A stretch of DNA of 7,959 bases, taken from NCBI GenBank assembly GCA_018457305.1, contig JAGYHM010000054.1:1-7959 (forward strand), in the 5' to 3' direction. The translations under genes and the position numbers were made by a program. This stretch comes from Fusobacterium sp. GTDB lineage: Bacteria > Fusobacteriota > Fusobacteriia > Fusobacteriales > Fusobacteriaceae. The notes under the pieces were generated by a model. That model did no database searches, was not told the origin of the DNA, and was given only the letters and a program-made list of their open reading frames with translations. Below are positions 351-7,959 of this stretch, piece after piece (position 1 is the stretch's first letter; the number at the start of each line of letters is the position of its first letter).

Positions 351-872
351 ATGAAAATACTTTTAGATGAAGTTGGAATAAGAAAATCAATGACAAGAAT
401 TTGTTATGAGATTATTGAAAGGAATAAAGATTTAGATAATTTAGTATTTGTTGGAATAAAAAGTCGTGGAGATATACTAGCAGAAAGAATGAGAAAAAAA
501 ATTAAAGAATTAGAAAACATATTTATACCTCTTGAAATTTTAGATATTACATATTATAGAGATGATAGAGATAAAAAGAGTGAAGATGTTGATATTAAAG
601 AAAAAGAATTTGAAATTAATTTAACGGGAAAAACAGTAATAATAATTGATGATGTTCTTTACACGGGAAGGACAATAAGAGCAGCCTTAGATGCTATTCT
701 TAGAGATTCAAGACCAGCAAAAATTCAACTGGCTTGTTTAATAGATAGAGGACATAGAGAATTACCAATAAGAGCAGACTTTATAGGAAAGAATATTCCT
801 ACATCAAAAGATGAAAATGTTGAAGTTCATTTAAAAGAACTTGATGGAATTGATGACGTAGAAATAATATAA
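351..872 (+). CDS. pyrR: PyrR: pyr operon RNA-binding attenuation regulator / uracil phosphoribosyltransferase
   Basis: The 173-residue protein matches the size of Bacillus PyrR (about 180). PyrR binds UMP/UTP and then the leader RNA, causing premature termination of the pyr operon; many homologues also convert uracil and PRPP to UMP. The sequence shows a type I phosphoribosyltransferase fold. GIKSRG (residues 35-40) is the pyrophosphate loop, and VIIIDDVLYTGRTIRAAL (96-113) is the PRPP-binding motif with the paired acidic residues D100-D101 and the TGRT loop. LIDRGHRELPIRADFIGK (130-147) is the typical C-terminal block, which includes basic residues of the kind used in RNA contact. An AGAGG Shine-Dalgarno (341-345) lies 5 nt before the ATG. 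It is the first gene after its own target attenuator, which gives negative autoregulation. No truncation or unusual residues were seen. Confidence 0.96.
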   Translation: MKILLDEVGIRKSMTRICYEIIERNKDLDNLVFVGIKSRGDILAERMRKKIKELENIFIPLEILDITYYRDDRDKKSEDVDIKEKEFEINLTGKTVIIIDDVLYTGRTIRAALDAILRDSRPAKIQLACLIDRGHRELPIRADFIGKNIPTSKDENVEVHLKELDGIDDVEII

Positions 873-980: not shown

Positions 981-1880
981 ATGAAAAAAAAGATTAAAAA
1001 CTTATTAAAAATGGAAGATTTAACGAATGATGAAATTTTAAATTTAATTAAGAGAGCATTAGAATTAAAAAATGGAGCAGAAAATAAAAAAAATAGAAAT
1101 ATTTTTGTAGTAAATTTATTTTTTGAAAATTCAACAAGAACTAAAAAAAGTTTTGAAATTGCAGAATTAAAATTAGCCTTAAATAAAATTGATTTTGAAG
1201 TCTCAACTTCGTCAGTACAAAAGGGGGAAACTTTTTATGATACTTGTAAAACATTAGAAATGATAGGAGTTAATATTTTAGTAGTAAGACATAATCAAAA
1301 TAAATATTATAAAGAACTTGAAAAATTAGAAATTCCTATAATAAATGCTGGAGATGGAAGTGGAGAACATCCTTCCCAATGTTTATTAGATTTGATGACT
1401 ATATATGAAAATTTTGGAAAATTTAAAAATTTAGAAGTTATTATAGCTGGAGATATAAAAAATTCAAGAGTTGCAAGAAGTAATAAGGGAGCTCTTACAA
1501 GACTTGGAGCAAAAGTTAGTTTTGTAGCTCCAGAAATTTGGCAAGATAAAAGTTTAGGAGAATTTAAAAATTTAGATGAGGTTATTGATAAAGTTGATGT
1601 CTGTATGCTTTTAAGAGTTCAACATGAAAGACATGAAACAGAAGAAAAAAATAATTTTTTAAAAGAAGAATACCATAAAAATTATGGATTAACAGAGCAG
1701 AGATATAAAAAATTAAAAGAGGATTCCATTATTATGCATCCTGCACCAGTAAATAGAAACATTGAAATTGCAGACAGTTTGGTGGAAAGTAAAAAATCAA
1801 AAATTTTTGAGCAAATGAAAAATGGAATGTTTATGAGGCAAGCTATTTTAGAATATATCATAGAAAAAAATAATTTATAA
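981..1880 (+). CDS. pyrB: Aspartate carbamoyltransferase catalytic subunit
   Basis: This enzyme transfers the carbamoyl group from carbamoyl phosphate to aspartate, giving N-carbamoyl-aspartate, the committed step of pyrimidine synthesis. The 299 residues match unregulated Bacillus-type PyrB (about 304). The carbamoyl-phosphate domain comes first: FENSTRT (48-54), SSVQKGET (77-84, catalytic Lys81), VVRH (101-104) and HPSQCLLDL (130-138). The aspartate domain follows: SRVARS (162-167), LLRVQHERH (210-218) and HPAPVNR (253-259). All expected active-site residues are present. No pyrI regulatory subunit gene follows, so a simple catalytic trimer is likely. The start at 981 is the only good one: no other ATG, GTG or TTG lies in frame before Met11, and the family's N-terminal LLxMEDLT-like block begins only at residue 8. 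Its Shine-Dalgarno is buried in a hairpin. Confidence 0.96.
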
Positions 1881-2086: not shown

Positions 2087-3382
2087 ATGCTTTTAAAAAA
2101 TTGTAAAATTTTAAAAAATGGAGAATTAGAAAAAGTTGATATTTTATTAGAAAAAAATAAAATTAAAAAAATTTCTGAAAAAATAGAGGAAAAAGAATTA
2201 GAAAATAAAAAAATAAAAATTATAGATGTGGAAGAAAAATTTGTTTCAGCAGGCTTTATAGATGTGCATGTGCATTGGAGAGAACCAGGATTTTCGCATA
2301 AAGAGACTATTTACTCTGCTTCAAGAGCAGCAGCAAGAGGAGGATTTACAACTGTGATGACTATGCCTAACTTAAAACCTGTTCCAGATAGTAAAGAAAA
2401 TTTAAATAAACAGTTAGAAATAATAAAAAAAGATTCTGTGATTAGAGCAATTCCTTATGGAGCAATCACAAAAGAAGAACACGGAAAAGACTTAACAGAT
2501 ATGGAAGGAATGGCAAAAGATATTTTTGCTTTTTCAGATGATGGAAGAGGAGTACAAGATGCGAATGTAATGTATGAGGCAATGCTTGTTGCTTCCAAAT
2601 TAAATAAACCTATAATTGCCCATTGTGAAGATAATTCTTTGGTAAGAGGTGGCTCAATGCACGAGGGAATTAAAAATAAAGAATTAGGAGTGAAAGGAAT
2701 TTTATCTGTCAGCGAATCTGTACAAGTTGCAAGAGATATTCTTCTAGCAGAAGCTGCAAATTGTCATTACCATGTTTGTCATATTTCAGCAAAAGAATCT
2801 GTAAGAGCAGTAAGAGAAGGAAAGAAAAATAATATTAAAGTTACTTGTGAAGTGACACCACATCATTTATTAAGTTCTGAATTAGATATAAAAGAAAATT
2901 CTGGATTTTGGAAAATGAATCCACCACTTAGAGGAGAAGATGACAGAAAAGCCTTAATAGAAGGAATTTTAGATGGAACTATAGATATTATAGCAACAGA
3001 TCATGCTCCACATAGAGAAGAAGAGAAAAATTTAGAAATTGAAAAAGCATATTTTGGAATAGTTGGATCTGAAACTGCTTTCTCTCAACTTTATACAAAA
3101 TTTGTAAAAACTAAAATATTTACACTAGATTTATTAGTAAAACTTATGACAGAGAATGTAGCAAAAATTTTTAACCTAGATTACGGTAAATTAGAAGAAA
3201 ATAAGTTAGCTGACTTAGTTGTAATAAATTTAGAAAAAGAAATTATTATAGATAGAGAAAAATTTATAAGCAAAGGGAGAAATACTCCTTATCATGGAGA
3301 AAAAATAAATGGGATTCCAATTCTAACTATATGTGATGGAAAAATTGTTTATCAAGATAAAGAAGAAATAAAAATAAATTAA
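2087..3382 (+). CDS. pyrC: Dihydroorotase, class I
   Basis: This cytoplasmic metalloenzyme cyclises N-carbamoyl-aspartate to dihydroorotate, the third step of the pathway. Its 431 residues match the class I (Bacillus/Aquifex type) enzymes of about 425 and are much longer than E. coli PyrC (about 348). Amidohydrolase metal ligands are visible: HVH at 61-63 in DVHVHWREPG, the bridging aspartate in FSDDG (149-153), His179 in IIAHCED, His232 in VCHISAKES, and Asp305 in IATDHAPH (302-309). Arg65 and the FxxxNPPLR-like block (274-282) are expected substrate contacts. The C-terminal GKLEENKLADLVV (367-379) is the usual return to the small beta-sandwich. A strong GGGAGGG Shine-Dalgarno lies at 2077-2083. 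It follows the GC-rich repeat and precedes carA by 19 nt. No defects were seen. Confidence 0.96.
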   Translation: MLLKNCKILKNGELEKVDILLEKNKIKKISEKIEEKELENKKIKIIDVEEKFVSAGFIDVHVHWREPGFSHKETIYSASRAAARGGFTTVMTMPNLKPVPDSKENLNKQLEIIKKDSVIRAIPYGAITKEEHGKDLTDMEGMAKDIFAFSDDGRGVQDANVMYEAMLVASKLNKPIIAHCEDNSLVRGGSMHEGIKNKELGVKGILSVSESVQVARDILLAEAANCHYHVCHISAKESVRAVREGKKNNIKVTCEVTPHHLLSSELDIKENSGFWKMNPPLRGEDDRKALIEGILDGTIDIIATDHAPHREEEKNLEIEKAYFGIVGSETAFSQLYTKFVKTKIFTLDLLVKLMTENVAKIFNLDYGKLEENKLADLVVINLEKEIIIDREKFISKGRNTPYHGEKINGIPILTICDGKIVYQDKEEIKIN

Positions 3383-3401
3383 AAATATAAAGGAGGAACT
3401 A

Positions 3402-3878
3402 ATGTTTAACAAAAAATTAGTTTTAGAAGATGGAACAGTATTAGAAGGAAATTTTTTTGGAGCAGAAAAAGATTTCGTAGGTGAATTAACTTTTGATATT
3501 TCTATGTTTGGTCAAGAAAAAATTTTAGCAGATGAAAAAGTAAAAAGTAAAGCAGTAAATTTTTCTTACCCATTAGTAGGAAATTATGGGGTAAGCAAAG
3601 AAGATTTTGAAAAATTAAATTTGAAGGCAGAAGCAATAGTAGTAAAAGAACTTTGTGAGAAAGCATCAAATTTTCAAAATGATTATTCTTTTGAAGACTT
3701 ACTTAAAAAAAATAATATTGTAGGGATACAAGGTATTGATACAAGATATATAACAAAAAAAATTAGAAAAGTTAGAGAAGAAAATAAAAAATTATATGGA
3801 GCAATAGTAGATATAAATAAAAATAATGAGGAAATTTTAAAAGAAATTTTAAAAATTAAGGAGGCTAATAATGGCTAA
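3402..3878 (+). CDS. carA: Carbamoyl-phosphate synthase small subunit, N-terminal domain only (no glutaminase domain)
   Basis: The 158 residues cover only the N-terminal domain of CarA; normal CarA has about 350-380 residues. Recognisable family blocks are [15 protein letters not shown] (6-20), SYPLVGNYG (55-63), [11 protein letters not shown] (81-91) and [15 protein letters not shown] (108-122). The whole C-terminal class I glutaminase domain is absent: no catalytic Cys nucleophile elbow and no His-x-Glu. No remnant can be hidden downstream, because carB starts 8 nt before this stop. The usual FNTGMTGYQEILTDPSY-type block is altered here (residues 31-47, [17 protein letters not shown]). Shine-Dalgarno AAGGAGG (3390-3396) is strong. 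The family is clear. The inferred role is a structural partner of CarB in an ammonia-dependent enzyme, or one that borrows a glutaminase encoded elsewhere. A truncated relic is possible, but the intact frame, good ribosome site and coupling to carB argue for use. Confidence 0.88.
3858..3864 (+). promoter_or_regulatory. Strong ribosome-binding site of carB, inside the end of carA
   Basis: AAGGAGG lies 6 nt before the carB ATG (3871) and within the last codons of carA, whose TAA is at 3876-3878. The 8-nt ATG/TAA overlap suggests translational coupling of the two subunits. It also shows that the shortened carA end is the natural junction with carB and not a recent frameshift. Confidence 0.85.
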
Positions 3879-6800
3879 GAGACAAGATATAAAAACAATT
3901 TTAGTTATAGGTTCAGGACCAATAATAATAGGTCAGGCAGCAGAATTTGATTATGCAGGAACTCAGGCTTGTTTATCTTTAAAAGAAGAAGGATATAAAG
4001 TAATTTTAGTAAATTCTAATCCTGCAACGATAATGACAGATACAGAGATAGCAGATAAAATTTATATAGAACCCTTAAATTTGGAATTTTTAACAAGAAT
4101 AATTAGAAAAGAAAAACCAGATGCTTTGCTTCCAACATTGGGGGGACAAGTTGGACTAAATTTAGCAGTGGAATTATATGAGAGTGGAATTTTAGAAGAA
4201 TGTGGAGTTGAAATTTTAGGAACAAAATTAAATTCTATAAAGCAAGCAGAAGACAGAGAATTATTTAGAGATTTAATGAATGAATTAAATGAGTCAGTCC
4301 CAGAATCGGATATAATTCATTCAGTTGAAGAAGCAAAGAAATTTGTTGAGGAGATAGGTTATCCAGTAATAATAAGACCTGCTTATACTATGGGAGGAAC
4401 AGGGGGAGGAATTTGTAATAACTTTGAAGAGTTAAAAGAAATTGTGAGCAATGGTTTAACTTATTCGCCAGTTAGACAGTGCTTAATAGAAAAATCAATA
4501 GCAGGTTATAAAGAAATTGAATACGAGGTAATAAGAGATAGCAGCGATAAGGCTATGGTTGTATGTAATATGGAAAATGTTGACCCTGTTGGAATACACA
4601 CAGGGGATTCAGTTGTAGTTGCACCAACTCAAACTTTAACTAGTGAAGAATGTGAAATGTTAAAAAATATTTCTTTAAAAATAATTAGAGCTTTAAAAAT
4701 TGAAGGTGGTTGCAATGTTCAAATAGCATTAGATCCAAATTCTCTAAGATATTATATTATTGAAGTAAATCCAAGAGTTTCTCGTTCATCAGCTCTTGCT
4801 TCAAAGGCAACAGGTTTTCCAATAGCAAGAATTGCTTCAAAAATTGCAGTGGGAATGAATTTAGATGAAATAATTAGTCCTATCACAAAAGTTCCTTATG
4901 GACATACTGGGATAAGTGTTGATTATGTTGTAAGTAAAATTGCAAGATTTCCATTTGATAAATTTGTAGATGGAGATAGAAGTTTAGGAACACAAATGAA
5001 GGCAACAGGAGAAGTGATGTCAATAGGCAGAACTTTTGAAGAATCTTTATTAAAAGGTATTCGTTCACTTGAATATGGAGTTCATCATTTAGGTTTACCT
5101 AATGGAGATAAATTTAGTTTAGATAAGATTATGAAAAAAATAGAAATTGCAAGTGATGAGAGATTATTTTTTATAGGAGAGGCATTAAGAAGGGATATTA
5201 CAGTAGAAAAAATTTATGAAATAACTAAGATAGATTTATTTTTCTTAAATAAAATGAAAAATATAATAGATTTAGAACATTGCTTAAAAAAAAATAAAGG
5301 GAATATAAGTTTATTAAAAAAAGTTAAAACTTATGGTTTTTCGGATAAAATAATTGCTCATAGATGGGAAATGGAAGAAAGAGAAATTTATGAATTAAGA
5401 CAAAAAAATAAAATTAAACCAGTTTATAAAGTAGTAGATACTTGTGCAGGTCTATATGATTCTGATATTCCATACTTATATTCAACTTATGAATTTGAAA
5501 ATGAATCTATAAGAAGTGATAAAGAAAAAATCGTTGTGCTTGGTTCAGGACCAATAAGAATAGGACAGGGAATAGAATTTGATTATGCAACTGTTCATGC
5601 AATACTTGCAATAAAAAAAATGGGATACGAAGCAATAATTATAAATAATAATCCTGAAACAGTTTCAACAGATTATACAATTTCAGATAAATTATATTTT
5701 GAACCTTTAACAGAAGAAGATGTAATGGAAATTTTAGATTTTGAAAAACCTTTGGGAGTTGTAGTTCAATTCGGAGGACAAACAGCAATAAATTTAGCAG
5801 ATAAAATTTCAAAAAGAGGAATAAAAATTTTGGGAAGTTCTTTAGAGAGTATAGATACTGCAGAAAATAGAGATAAGTTTGAAAAATTATTATCAGATTT
5901 AAAAATACCTCAGCCTTTAGGGAAAACAGCATTCAATCCGGAAGTAGCATTAAAAAATGCGAATGAAATTGGCTATCCAGTTCTTGTGAGACCATCTTAT
6001 GTTTTAGGTGGAAGAGCAATGGAAATAGTCTATAACGATGAAGACTTGAAAAAATATATGGAAACAGCAGTAAAAATAAATCCAGAATATCCAGTTTTAA
6101 TAGATAGATACTTACTTGGAAAAGAAATAGAAGTTGATGCGATATCAGACGGAGAAAACACTTTAATTCCAGGAATTATGGAACATATAGAAAGAGCAGG
6201 AGTACACAGTGGAGATTCAATAGCAATTTATCCTCCACAAACTTTATCAAAAGATGAAATAAAAAAAATAATAGATTATACAAAGAAATTAACAAAAGGA
6301 TTAAAAGTAAAAGGTTTAATAAATATACAATATATAGTGAGCAATGGAGAAATTTATGTACTTGAAGTAAATCCAAGAGCCTCAAGAACGGTTCCGTTTT
6401 TAAGTAAAGTAACAAAAGTTTCTATACCTAATATTGCAATGCAATGTATCTTAGGAAAAACTTTAAAAGAATTAGACTTAGATAAAGATATGATAGAGTT
6501 TAACAAAGAAATTTCAGTAAAAGTTCCAGTATTTAGTTTTCAAAAATTAAAAAATGTAGAGACTGCACTAGGTCCTGAAATGAAATCTACTGGTGAAGTA
6601 ATGGGAACAGATATGAATTTAGAAAAAGCCTTATATAAAGGTTTAACTGCAGCTGGAATTAAAATTAAAGATTATGGAAAAGTTTTATTTACAATAGATA
6701 ATAAAAATAAAGAAGAAGCTTTAAATATGGCAAAAAGATTTTATGAAATAGGTTATGAAATTTTAGCAACGGAAGGAACGGCTAAATATTTTATAGAAAA

Positions 6801-7047
6801 TAATATTGAGGTAAAAGTTGTTGGAAAAATAAATAAATCAGAATATTCTGTTTTAGATGCTATCTCAAGTAGAGAAGTTGATATAGTTGTAAATACGACG
6901 ACAAAAGGAAAAATTAGTGAAAAAGATGGATTTAAAATTAGAAGAAAATCAATAGAGAATGGAATAATTTGTTTTACATCATTAGATACAGCAAATGCTC
7001 TTTTAAAAGTTATAGAATCAAGAAATTTTAAAATAAAAACTATATAA
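3871..7047 (+). CDS. carB: Carbamoyl-phosphate synthase large subunit
   Basis: This subunit makes carbamoyl phosphate from bicarbonate, ammonia and two ATP. It is full length: 1058 residues against about 1073 in E. coli. It shows the normal tandem layout. The first synthetase half has GSGPIIIGQ (14-22), an ATP-grasp lysine/arginine region [18 protein letters not shown] (163-180) and metal-binding EVNPR (298-302). An oligomerisation segment follows (about 400-550). The second half has GSGPIRIGQ (558-566), [15 protein letters not shown] (701-715) and EVNPR (832-836). The C-terminal MGS-like allosteric domain (about 936-1058) keeps ATEGTA (966-971) and VNTTT (1007-1011), positions that bind UMP or IMP in E. 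coli, so feedback control by nucleotides is plausible. No catalytic residue appears lost, so CarB should be active with ammonia even though its CarA partner lacks a glutaminase domain. It overlaps carA by 8 nt. Confidence 0.97.
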
Positions 7048-7190
7048 GCAAATGGGAAACTGCGATTTGCTTTGCAAACCTGTTTCCCCTCTCTGCGACG
7101 CTTGGGGCTTTCTTAGTTTTTCTTAACGAACTTTGTTCGTTTAGAAAATCTTAGATGCTTAACGAAGTGGTAGAGTACGCCCCAAACCCC
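7048..7190 (+). repeat. GC-rich intergenic hairpin repeat, copy B (rearranged relative to copy A)
   Basis: This element starts at once after the carB stop. GGGAAAC (7054-7060) pairs with GTTTCCC (7082-7088), enclosing TTTGC/GCAAA (7066-7070/7074-7078). The tag CTCTGCGACGCTTGGGGCT (7091-7109) matches copy A at 18 of 19 positions. A long hairpin follows: AACGAAC/GTTCGTT (7125-7131/7135-7141) extended by further pairs out to 7111 and 7155. TTGGGGC (7102-7108) pairs with GCCCCAA (7179-7185), closing the structure. The segment 7111-7176 is the reverse complement of the copy A core (1907-1979), while the tag keeps the same orientation. No T tract follows the 7054-7088 hairpin, so it is a poor intrinsic terminator, and carB-pyrF read-through is likely. 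Confidence 0.83.
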
Positions 7191-7221
7191 ATTATAATAA
7201 CAAATTAAAAACTTTTGTATT

Positions 7222-7281
7222 AGGGAGGTGGGGCGTCAGCCCCGCCCTAAAGGGCGAGCAGAGCTTTGCTCGTAGCGAGCC
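7222..7281 (+). repeat. GC-rich multi-hairpin module before pyrF
   Basis: Three adjoining hairpins lie in about 60 nt. GGTGGGGC (7227-7234) pairs with GCCCCGCC (7239-7246) around GTCA. GCCCT (7244-7248) can pair with AGGGC (7251-7255). GAGC/GCTC (7261-7264/7268-7271) competes with GCTCG/CGAGC (7268-7272/7276-7280). It is not similar to the inverted core shared by copies A and B, apart from the general GGGGC/GCCCC theme. A short AT-rich spacer with the pyrF ribosome site follows. It looks like an extragenic palindromic repeat unit. Whether it recurs elsewhere in the genome cannot be seen here. Confidence 0.72.
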
Positions 7282-7313
7282 AAGAAATAAAAATAAATAA
7301 GGAGTTTAAAAAG

Positions 7314-7959
7314 ATGAAAAGAGAAGTAATTATTGCCTTAGATTTTCCGACAATAGAGAAAACTTTAAATTTTTTAGATAAATTTGGAGAAGAAAAATTA
7401 TTTGTAAAAGTTGGTATGGAACTTTATTTACAAAATGGAATTAAAGTTATTGAAGAAATAAAAAAAAGAGGTCATAAAATATTTTTAGATTTAAAATTAC
7501 ATGATATTCCAAACACAGTTTATTCAGCAACTAAAGGATTAGTAAAATTTGATATAGATATTTTAACAGTTCATGCAAGTGGTGGCTCTGAAATGTTAAA
7601 AGCTAGTAAAAAAGCAGTTGAAGAAACGGAAGCAAAAACTAAAATTATAGCTATAACTCAACTTACTTCAACAAGTGAAGATAATATGAGAAAAGAGCAA
7701 AATATTCAAACAAGCATAGAAGAATCTGTTTTGAATTATGCAAAACTTTCAAAAGAAAGTGGAGTTGATGGAGTTGTTTCTTCAGTTTGGGAAACAAAAA
7801 AAATTAGAGAACAAAGTGGAGAAAATTTTATAATAATAAATCCAGGAATTAGATTAAAAGAAGATTCAAAAGGAGATCAAAAAAGAGTTGCAAATCCAAT
7901 TGAAGCAAAAAATAATGGAGCAACTTATATAGTAGTAGGTCGTTCTATAACAAAAAATT
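7314..7959 (+). CDS. pyrF: Orotidine 5'-phosphate decarboxylase (3' end beyond the window)
   Basis: This enzyme decarboxylates OMP to UMP, the last step of de novo UMP synthesis. The window holds 215 codons and part of the next without a stop; the family is usually about 230-240 residues, so only a short tail is missing. Class I motifs are visible: IIALDFP (6-12, Asp10), VKVGMELY (31-38, Lys32), the catalytic DLKLHDIPNTV (59-69, with Asp59, Lys61 and Asp64), LTVHASGG (84-91), INPGIR (175-180) and the phosphate-binding VVGRSIT (207-213). The Shine-Dalgarno AAGGAG (7299-7304) is 9 nt before the ATG. It is 266 nt after carB, separated by two GC-rich repeat units. In Bacillus operons pyrK and pyrD lie between pyrAB (carB) and pyrF; here they do not. 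Confidence 0.95.
   Translation, partial: MKREVIIALDFPTIEKTLNFLDKFGEEKLFVKVGMELYLQNGIKVIEEIKKRGHKIFLDLKLHDIPNTVYSATKGLVKFDIDILTVHASGGSEMLKASKKAVEETEAKTKIIAITQLTSTSEDNMRKEQNIQTSIEESVLNYAKLSKESGVDGVVSSVWETKKIREQSGENFIIINPGIRLKEDSKGDQKRVANPIEAKNNGATYIVVGRSITKN

Follow-up and report, generated by a model that had tools for sequence, protein, structure and literature searches.

A carbamoyl-phosphate synthase without its glutaminase half in a group of Fusobacterium-like sequences

How does a carbamoyl-phosphate synthase (CPS) obtain ammonia when the half of its small subunit that takes it from glutamine is gone? This question is raised by a pyrimidine operon in the window, that is, the whole 7,959-nucleotide Fusobacterium sp. 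contig analysed here, in which the genes run pyrR-pyrB-pyrC-carA-carB-pyrF, all on the + strand, with only the start of pyrF present. The carA of this operon (3402..3878) is short, as it encodes a protein of 158 amino acids that carries the CarA N-terminal domain (PF00988) without the glutamine amidotransferase (GATase) half. CPS is a textbook example of ammonia channelling. We find that the glutaminase half has truly been lost, that the large subunit CarB is intact, and that the loss is common to a group of Fusobacterium-like sequences.

A small subunit reduced to its N-terminal domain

The short carA is preceded by a ribosome-binding site, AAGGAGG, at 3390..3396, and its TAA stop (3876-3878) lies 8 nt into carB, which starts with the ATG at 3871. 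The ribosome-binding site of carB, also AAGGAGG, is located within the carA frame (3858..3864); both sites were read directly from the + strand. The codon-position GC contents of the short carA (0.41/0.22/0.10) are similar to those of the other genes, the second-position value being the lowest among them. An earlier note on this DNA, made from the letters alone, had described a carA of 158 codons stopping where the N-domain ends and a carB starting inside its last codons with a perfect ribosome site, and our analysis agrees on both.

Pfam matched PF00988 in the short CarA with 124.6 bits over profile positions 1-119 of 126. The sole other Pfam line, PF22712, scored 20.4 bits, under its cut-off of 27, and no match to the GATase domain (PF00117) was found in this protein. 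The equivalog models for full-length CarA remained below their cut-offs (TIGR01368, 124.4 versus 307.35 bits; NF009475, 130.6 versus 221). A hidden Markov model (HMM) of the GATase half, run on the six frames of the window, gave zero matches at E 1e-4 or at E 1, and tblastn with the GATase half of Fusobacterium vincentii against the window gave no line at E 10. The earlier claim that this half is cleanly gone, leaving no remnant, is borne out by these searches. Without a GATase half, the short CarA also lacks the Cys-His-Glu triad.

In a structure model, residues 1-158 of the short CarA align with residues 2-155 of E. coli CarA. The chain ends with a helix formed by residues 142-157 (3825..3872, + strand; placed by the secondary structure of the model and the alignment range), at which E. 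coli CarA continues into its GATase half. According to the model, the short CarA ends at the domain boundary and the fold of the N-domain is retained. Thoden and co-workers are said to have placed the end of the E. coli N-domain near residue 153.

The neighbouring carB (3871..7047, + strand) encodes 1058 amino acids and is a complete CPS large subunit, with a TIGR01369 score of 1492.8 versus a cut-off of 1027 and the domains PF02786, PF02787, and PF02142 (two-ATP-grasp synthase, oligomerisation, and MGS). The residues of the ammonia gate, which we take to be C232, A251, and A314 in E. coli numbering, are identical in this CarB when aligned to 1bxr_A. The view that CarB is intact was thus correct. 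In the extracts used here, PMC4655335 names the ammonia gate of CPS with the numbers of CPS1, the human enzyme.

Relatives with a short CarA and the altered N-domain

A length-limited protein search revealed three more short CarAs with PF00988 as their only domain: P0002 (156 aa, 77% identical to that of the window), P0003 (153 aa, 71%), and P0004 (147 aa, 65%). A fifth protein, P0005 (134 aa, 52% identity), groups with these four short CarAs with a support of 0.969; it was excluded from the counts of four given below, and its chain end may not be natural because its contig is only 1591 bases long. P0003 probably shares one contig with CarB P0123, which is 90% identical to the CarB of the window, as the longest contig given for either protein measures 10811 bases and has one source. 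The CarBs nearest to that of the window are 93, 90, 86, and 83% identical to it, followed by those of Fusobacterium russii (81%) and F. nucleatum (80%), and the CarB of the window forms one group with P0122-P0124 (86-93% identity), to which the F. russii set does not belong. An amino-acid-fermenting anaerobe, which the earlier note imagined as host, fits this placement of the window near Fusobacterium by CarB. The note had also considered that related genomes might all have a full-length carA at this locus: F. vincentii does, whereas the closest relatives found are short.

No full-length CarA more than 50% identical to that of the window was found among the best 120 of 180 matches. It should be noted that this search missed the F. 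vincentii-type CarA among the matches listed, although it would score 122 bits; the absence of close full-length relatives is therefore suggestive only. P0241, encoded on a contig of 6130 bases, is full-length and close to the CarA of F. vincentii. Neither the short CarA nor CarB found a match in a scan of viral contigs, and the sole match in a scan of genome contigs was a distant Clostridia locus with a normal CarA of 365 aa.

The retained N-domain has changed far more than its neighbours. In comparison with F. vincentii SB055 (L014), the closest record with DNA used here, PyrR, PyrB, PyrC, CarB, and PyrF are 76, 79, 76, 80, and 83% identical, respectively, whereas the CarA N-domain is 43% identical. 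Among normal carA-carB pairs (five pairs, ten comparisons), the identity of the N-domain is 3 to 15 points under that of CarB, as in the pair F. vincentii/Bacillus (65 versus 69). For the window, this gap reaches 37 points to F. vincentii and 24-25 points to Bacillus, Paenibacillus, and the Clostridia locus; to Eubacterium it is 12 points, inside the normal range. On matched seven-taxon trees, the branch leading to the short group is 6 times as long for the N-domain (0.714) as for CarB (0.119); the same ratio is 1.55 for the distance between F. vincentii and Bacillus and 3.4 within the short group. These sequence comparisons point to a burst of change in the N-domain, after which constraint continued at a reduced level.

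The changes are concentrated in codons 30-55 (3489..3566, + strand), where the majority of the positions that full-length CarAs conserve are altered. All four short CarAs keep 2 of the 16 conserved columns in this stretch and 21 of the 29 elsewhere, or 23/45 in total. The replacements include E40K, P45E, S46K, and Q50K, and the conserved GYQE..DPSY..Q stretch of CarA is not preserved in the short CarAs. The same stretch covers the position of E. coli Ser47, which is Ser in 34/34 comparison rows and Lys in 4/4 short CarAs. Thoden and co-workers reportedly found that this serine contacts glutamine; our literature search on CarA Ser47 returned nothing on CPS among the matches listed. The kept columns were inflated in a first count, made on 118 full-length proteins, because 117 of these had been found via words shared with the query. 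The values given here are from a repeat on 34 sequences picked otherwise (30 survey loci plus Bacillus, Eubacterium, Paenibacillus, and F. vincentii); as the range 30-55 was set from the first count and the same four short CarAs were used in both, the p value of the repeat is not independent.

Free ammonia as the probable substrate

As the glutaminase half is lost and the non-catalytic half kept, free ammonia is probably used directly, and we favor, from the sequences, a reading in which the CPS of this operon makes carbamoyl phosphate from free ammonia and keeps the N-domain as a subunit. CarB, which retains its two phosphorylation domains as well as the allosteric one, would convert bicarbonate, two ATP, and free ammonia to carbamoyl phosphate, with ammonia, which should be abundant in an amino-acid fermenter, taking the place of glutamine. 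The N-domain, as a separate subunit of 158 aa, would most likely still be seated on CarB. There, it may cap the ammonia entrance and form one wall of a side route for external ammonia, analogous to the one suggested for human CPS1 at this interface. We infer the binding to CarB, the substrate, and the role at the entrance. Truncation work by Guillou in 1989 reportedly put CarB binding in the N-half of CarA.

Two observations in the extracts of PMC4655335 are in line with this proposal: E. coli CPS whose glutamine tunnel has been blocked or perforated has normal activity on external ammonia, and in human CPS1, for which glutamine is no substrate, a candidate side tunnel that may admit external ammonia begins between Glu82 and His142 and follows the interface of the two halves of the enzyme. 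Both residues lie in the CPS1 region matched by the short CarA, judging by the alignment range. More tentatively, the sequences could reflect a dedicated ammonia CPS that arose by deletion of the glutaminase, with the N-domain as a free-standing entrance subunit admitting external ammonia, a further step that we regard as quite possible.

Several points weigh against these proposals. Only 13 group-specific changes were found in 608 conserved columns of CarB (P0121-P0123; P0124 set aside), so that CarB itself gives no clear indication of a remodelled entrance for ammonia. The rate of change in the N-domain is high (43% identity versus 80% for CarB; stem 0.714 versus 0.119), which could reflect weakening constraint instead of a new role; 8 of the 29 conserved positions outside codons 30-55 are lost as well, and 4/4 short CarAs have Lys instead of the conserved Glu at position 40. 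With pyrK and pyrD missing beside carB, the pathway could be decaying. It is also possible that a GATase or a second carA is encoded elsewhere in the genome. Finally, the Clostridia-phylum order with a decayed GATase described below keeps its GATase half, making it an analogue and not the same state.

The possibility of a GATase from elsewhere can be made explicit: CarA would have been split in two, the GATase half, encoded at another locus, would dock in trans on the N-domain and CarB, and glutamine would still be used. Normal Fusobacterium does have other class I GATases (PF00117 matches six places in F. vincentii, five of them over the cut-off and one in carA), and separate chains seem to be tolerated, as the N-domain and GATase frames are split near the domain boundary in four Clostridia loci (L013, L021, L022, and L047). 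However, in 9/9 loci that have a split or frameshifted carA and match the N-domain (L013, L021-L027, and L047) the GATase adjoins, which it does not in the window. Moreover, the lost N-domain positions, including that of E. coli Ser47, are ones conserved in GATase-bearing CarAs; a docking GATase should preserve such positions and is thus disfavored, and we consider this split unlikely. A second full-length carA elsewhere, leaving the short copy redundant or regulatory, has precedents in that 12 of 61 Clostridia-phylum genomes have two or three PF00988 places (one third place, in G136, being below the cut-off) and in that the full-length P0241 exists. A pyr operon beside CarB would nevertheless be an odd site for a spare copy, and the window apparently shares this arrangement with one other contig; we find this explanation very doubtful.

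Loss of de novo pyrimidine synthesis would explain the locus differently, the GATase half and pyrK-pyrD being gone and the N-domain being a drifting remnant. The fast evolution of the N-domain would fit. So would the absence of pyrK-pyrD between carB and pyrF: the operon of F. vincentii SB055, as read from its open reading frames, is pyrR-pyrB-pyrC-carA (358 aa)-carB-pyrK-pyrD-pyrF-pyrE, with pyrK and pyrD at L014 11441-13185, whereas the window has a gap of 266 bases (7048-7313), and tblastn with PyrK and PyrD found no trace in the window (best E 1.2). On the other hand, Paenibacillus too has carB-pyrF without pyrK-pyrD. The frames of the window are intact, with CarB, PyrB, PyrC, and PyrF (the last cut by the window end) at the identities to F. 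vincentii given above, and four sequences have retained the short frame, those outside the window being 65-77% identical to that of the window, with 23/45 conserved columns kept in all. Decay therefore appears quite improbable to us. As the proteins of the window come from one contig of 7959 bases, a single-contig assembly or sequencing error that deleted about 600 bases is conceivable; this concern, raised in the earlier note, is contradicted by the three similar short CarAs on other contigs and by the clean carA end with the carB ribosome site inside its frame, and deserves hardly any weight.

Comparison with other enzymes, survey, and operon context

Glutamine-dependent CarAB, as in E. coli (1JDB) and F. 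vincentii, has the GATase half with its Cys-His-Glu triad, both lacking in the window, and conserves N-domain residues 30-55, which are changed in the short CarA. The ammonia-dependent CPS1 of urea-cycle animals (5DOT/5DOU) is, in the extracts of PMC4655335, one fused chain activated by N-acetylglutamate that keeps an inactive glutaminase-like S2; the window has no S2, and its S1 is a separate protein. A bacterial precedent for an ATP-dependent amidotransferase working on free ammonia is the single-domain NAD synthetase NadE type N, an unrelated enzyme whose glutaminase-free form is taken as ancestral in the consulted parts of PMC3376133, whereas the window is a case of secondary loss. Table 1 of that 2012 paper, in the part consulted, classifies CPS in 600 genomes as 1% fused, 72% clustered, and 27% remote, with none lacking a glutaminase. 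Our literature search, which had most subscription journals outside it, found no published glutaminase-less bacterial CPS among the matches listed. The domain loss is real and common to a group of Fusobacterium-like sequences, so that the short-CarA CPS represents a novel variant of a known enzyme.

A different route is suggested by an order of a Clostridia phylum, represented by genome G152, where a CarA of 305 aa (L064 3313-4230) is found in the order pyrB-pyrC-carA-carB (gene names by translation likeness; CarA alone was scanned). PF00988 matches it weakly (53.3 bits), and for the GATase half the score is 13 bits, under the cut-off of 22.8. In an alignment with normal CarAs, other residues take the place of the catalytic Cys of FGIC.GH and the His of FHPE, as is the case for both in 3/3 aligned proteins of the order (G152, L071, and L072; three of four loci were aligned, L073 being left out). 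Four of the five genomes of this order have one weak PF00988 place each (50-59 bits) and the fifth has none. In G152, a PF00117 search found three other frames (517, 575, and 248 codons), and the F. vincentii CarA as query retrieved just one of these, the 517-codon frame, besides the decayed CarA. With the same query, no CarA-type replacement was found in G159, G160, and G161, which gave only the decayed CarA, or in G105, which gave nothing; as the completeness of these genomes is unstated, this absence is no proof. Another phylum thus contains a CPS whose glutaminase is apparently dead, and the sequences suggest that CarA-CarB of this order is likely an ammonia-dependent CPS of its own. Like the window, G152, G159, G160, and G161 have, beside CarB, a pyr operon CarA that cannot act as a normal glutaminase; their GATase half is present without Cys and His, as in CPS1.

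Together, the short-CarA group and this order suggest that bacteria can dispense with glutamine coupling more than once. A CPS with only the non-catalytic CarA half separates two roles of CarA, and makes the role of the N-domain and the external-ammonia route directly testable. If our proposal is true, the enzyme would form a natural equivalent of animal CPS1 that arose via deletion and not active-site mutation, with the decayed-GATase order as a further, independent route to the same outcome.

A survey of one Clostridia phylum detected PF00988 in 48 of 61 genomes, at 62 places, of which 57 were in open frames of at least 355 codons. We inspected 30 fetched loci and two more (L063 and L064). 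All 30 fetched loci carry GATase sequence; L047 is split and L062 is cut by a contig end. L063 (114 codons) was rejected as a short CarA, since it is also cut by a contig end. Nine broken or weak carA loci of a small-genome Clostridia family (L013 and L021-L028) were likewise rejected as independent short CarAs, as 8/9 have an adjoining GATase part; the ninth, L028, matched neither the N-domain nor the GATase model, and its earlier match was weak (E 7.9e-4). In a set of 38 loci (the 30 survey loci, 7 from the family search, and L028), 37 have the N-domain and GATase, 36 of them in one frame, with L047 split and L028 having neither.

In L013, L021, L022, and L047, a carA N-domain frame is followed near the domain boundary by an overlapping GATase frame, perhaps as true gene splits; the N-domain is in its own frame as in the window, but the GATase frame overlaps it directly. 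In L024, L025, and L026, from three genomes of one Clostridia family, the carA frame breaks at almost one and the same point within the N-domain (HMM positions 106-109) and the remainder is in an overlapping frame, possibly through a shared frameshift, which may be programmed, or a repeated sequencing error. In L009 (G037:C16), the CarA match lies inside an open frame of 1229 codons that may be a fusion or merely a long open frame.

The remaining genes of the window, all on the + strand, are pyrR (351..872; NF003548, 240.8 bits, cut-off 218), pyrB for aspartate carbamoyltransferase, the user of carbamoyl phosphate (981..1880; NF002032, 357.1 bits, cut-off 263), pyrC for dihydroorotase (2087..3382; NF006837, 662.3 bits, cut-off 575), and pyrF (7314..7958), which follows carB, runs past the window end, and had its start picked by comparison with F. 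vincentii. Rfam at gathering scores matched nothing in the window. The gaps 1881-2086 and 7048-7313 carry GC-richer repeat copies in opposite orientation (52 nt, 87%); L014 has two short matches to these gaps (28 and 39 nt) and otherwise nothing alike. Of note, L014 (NZ_CP084075.1), a chromosome-like F. vincentii record of 2.1 Mb with one annotated feature, is filed as a plasmid in PLSDB.
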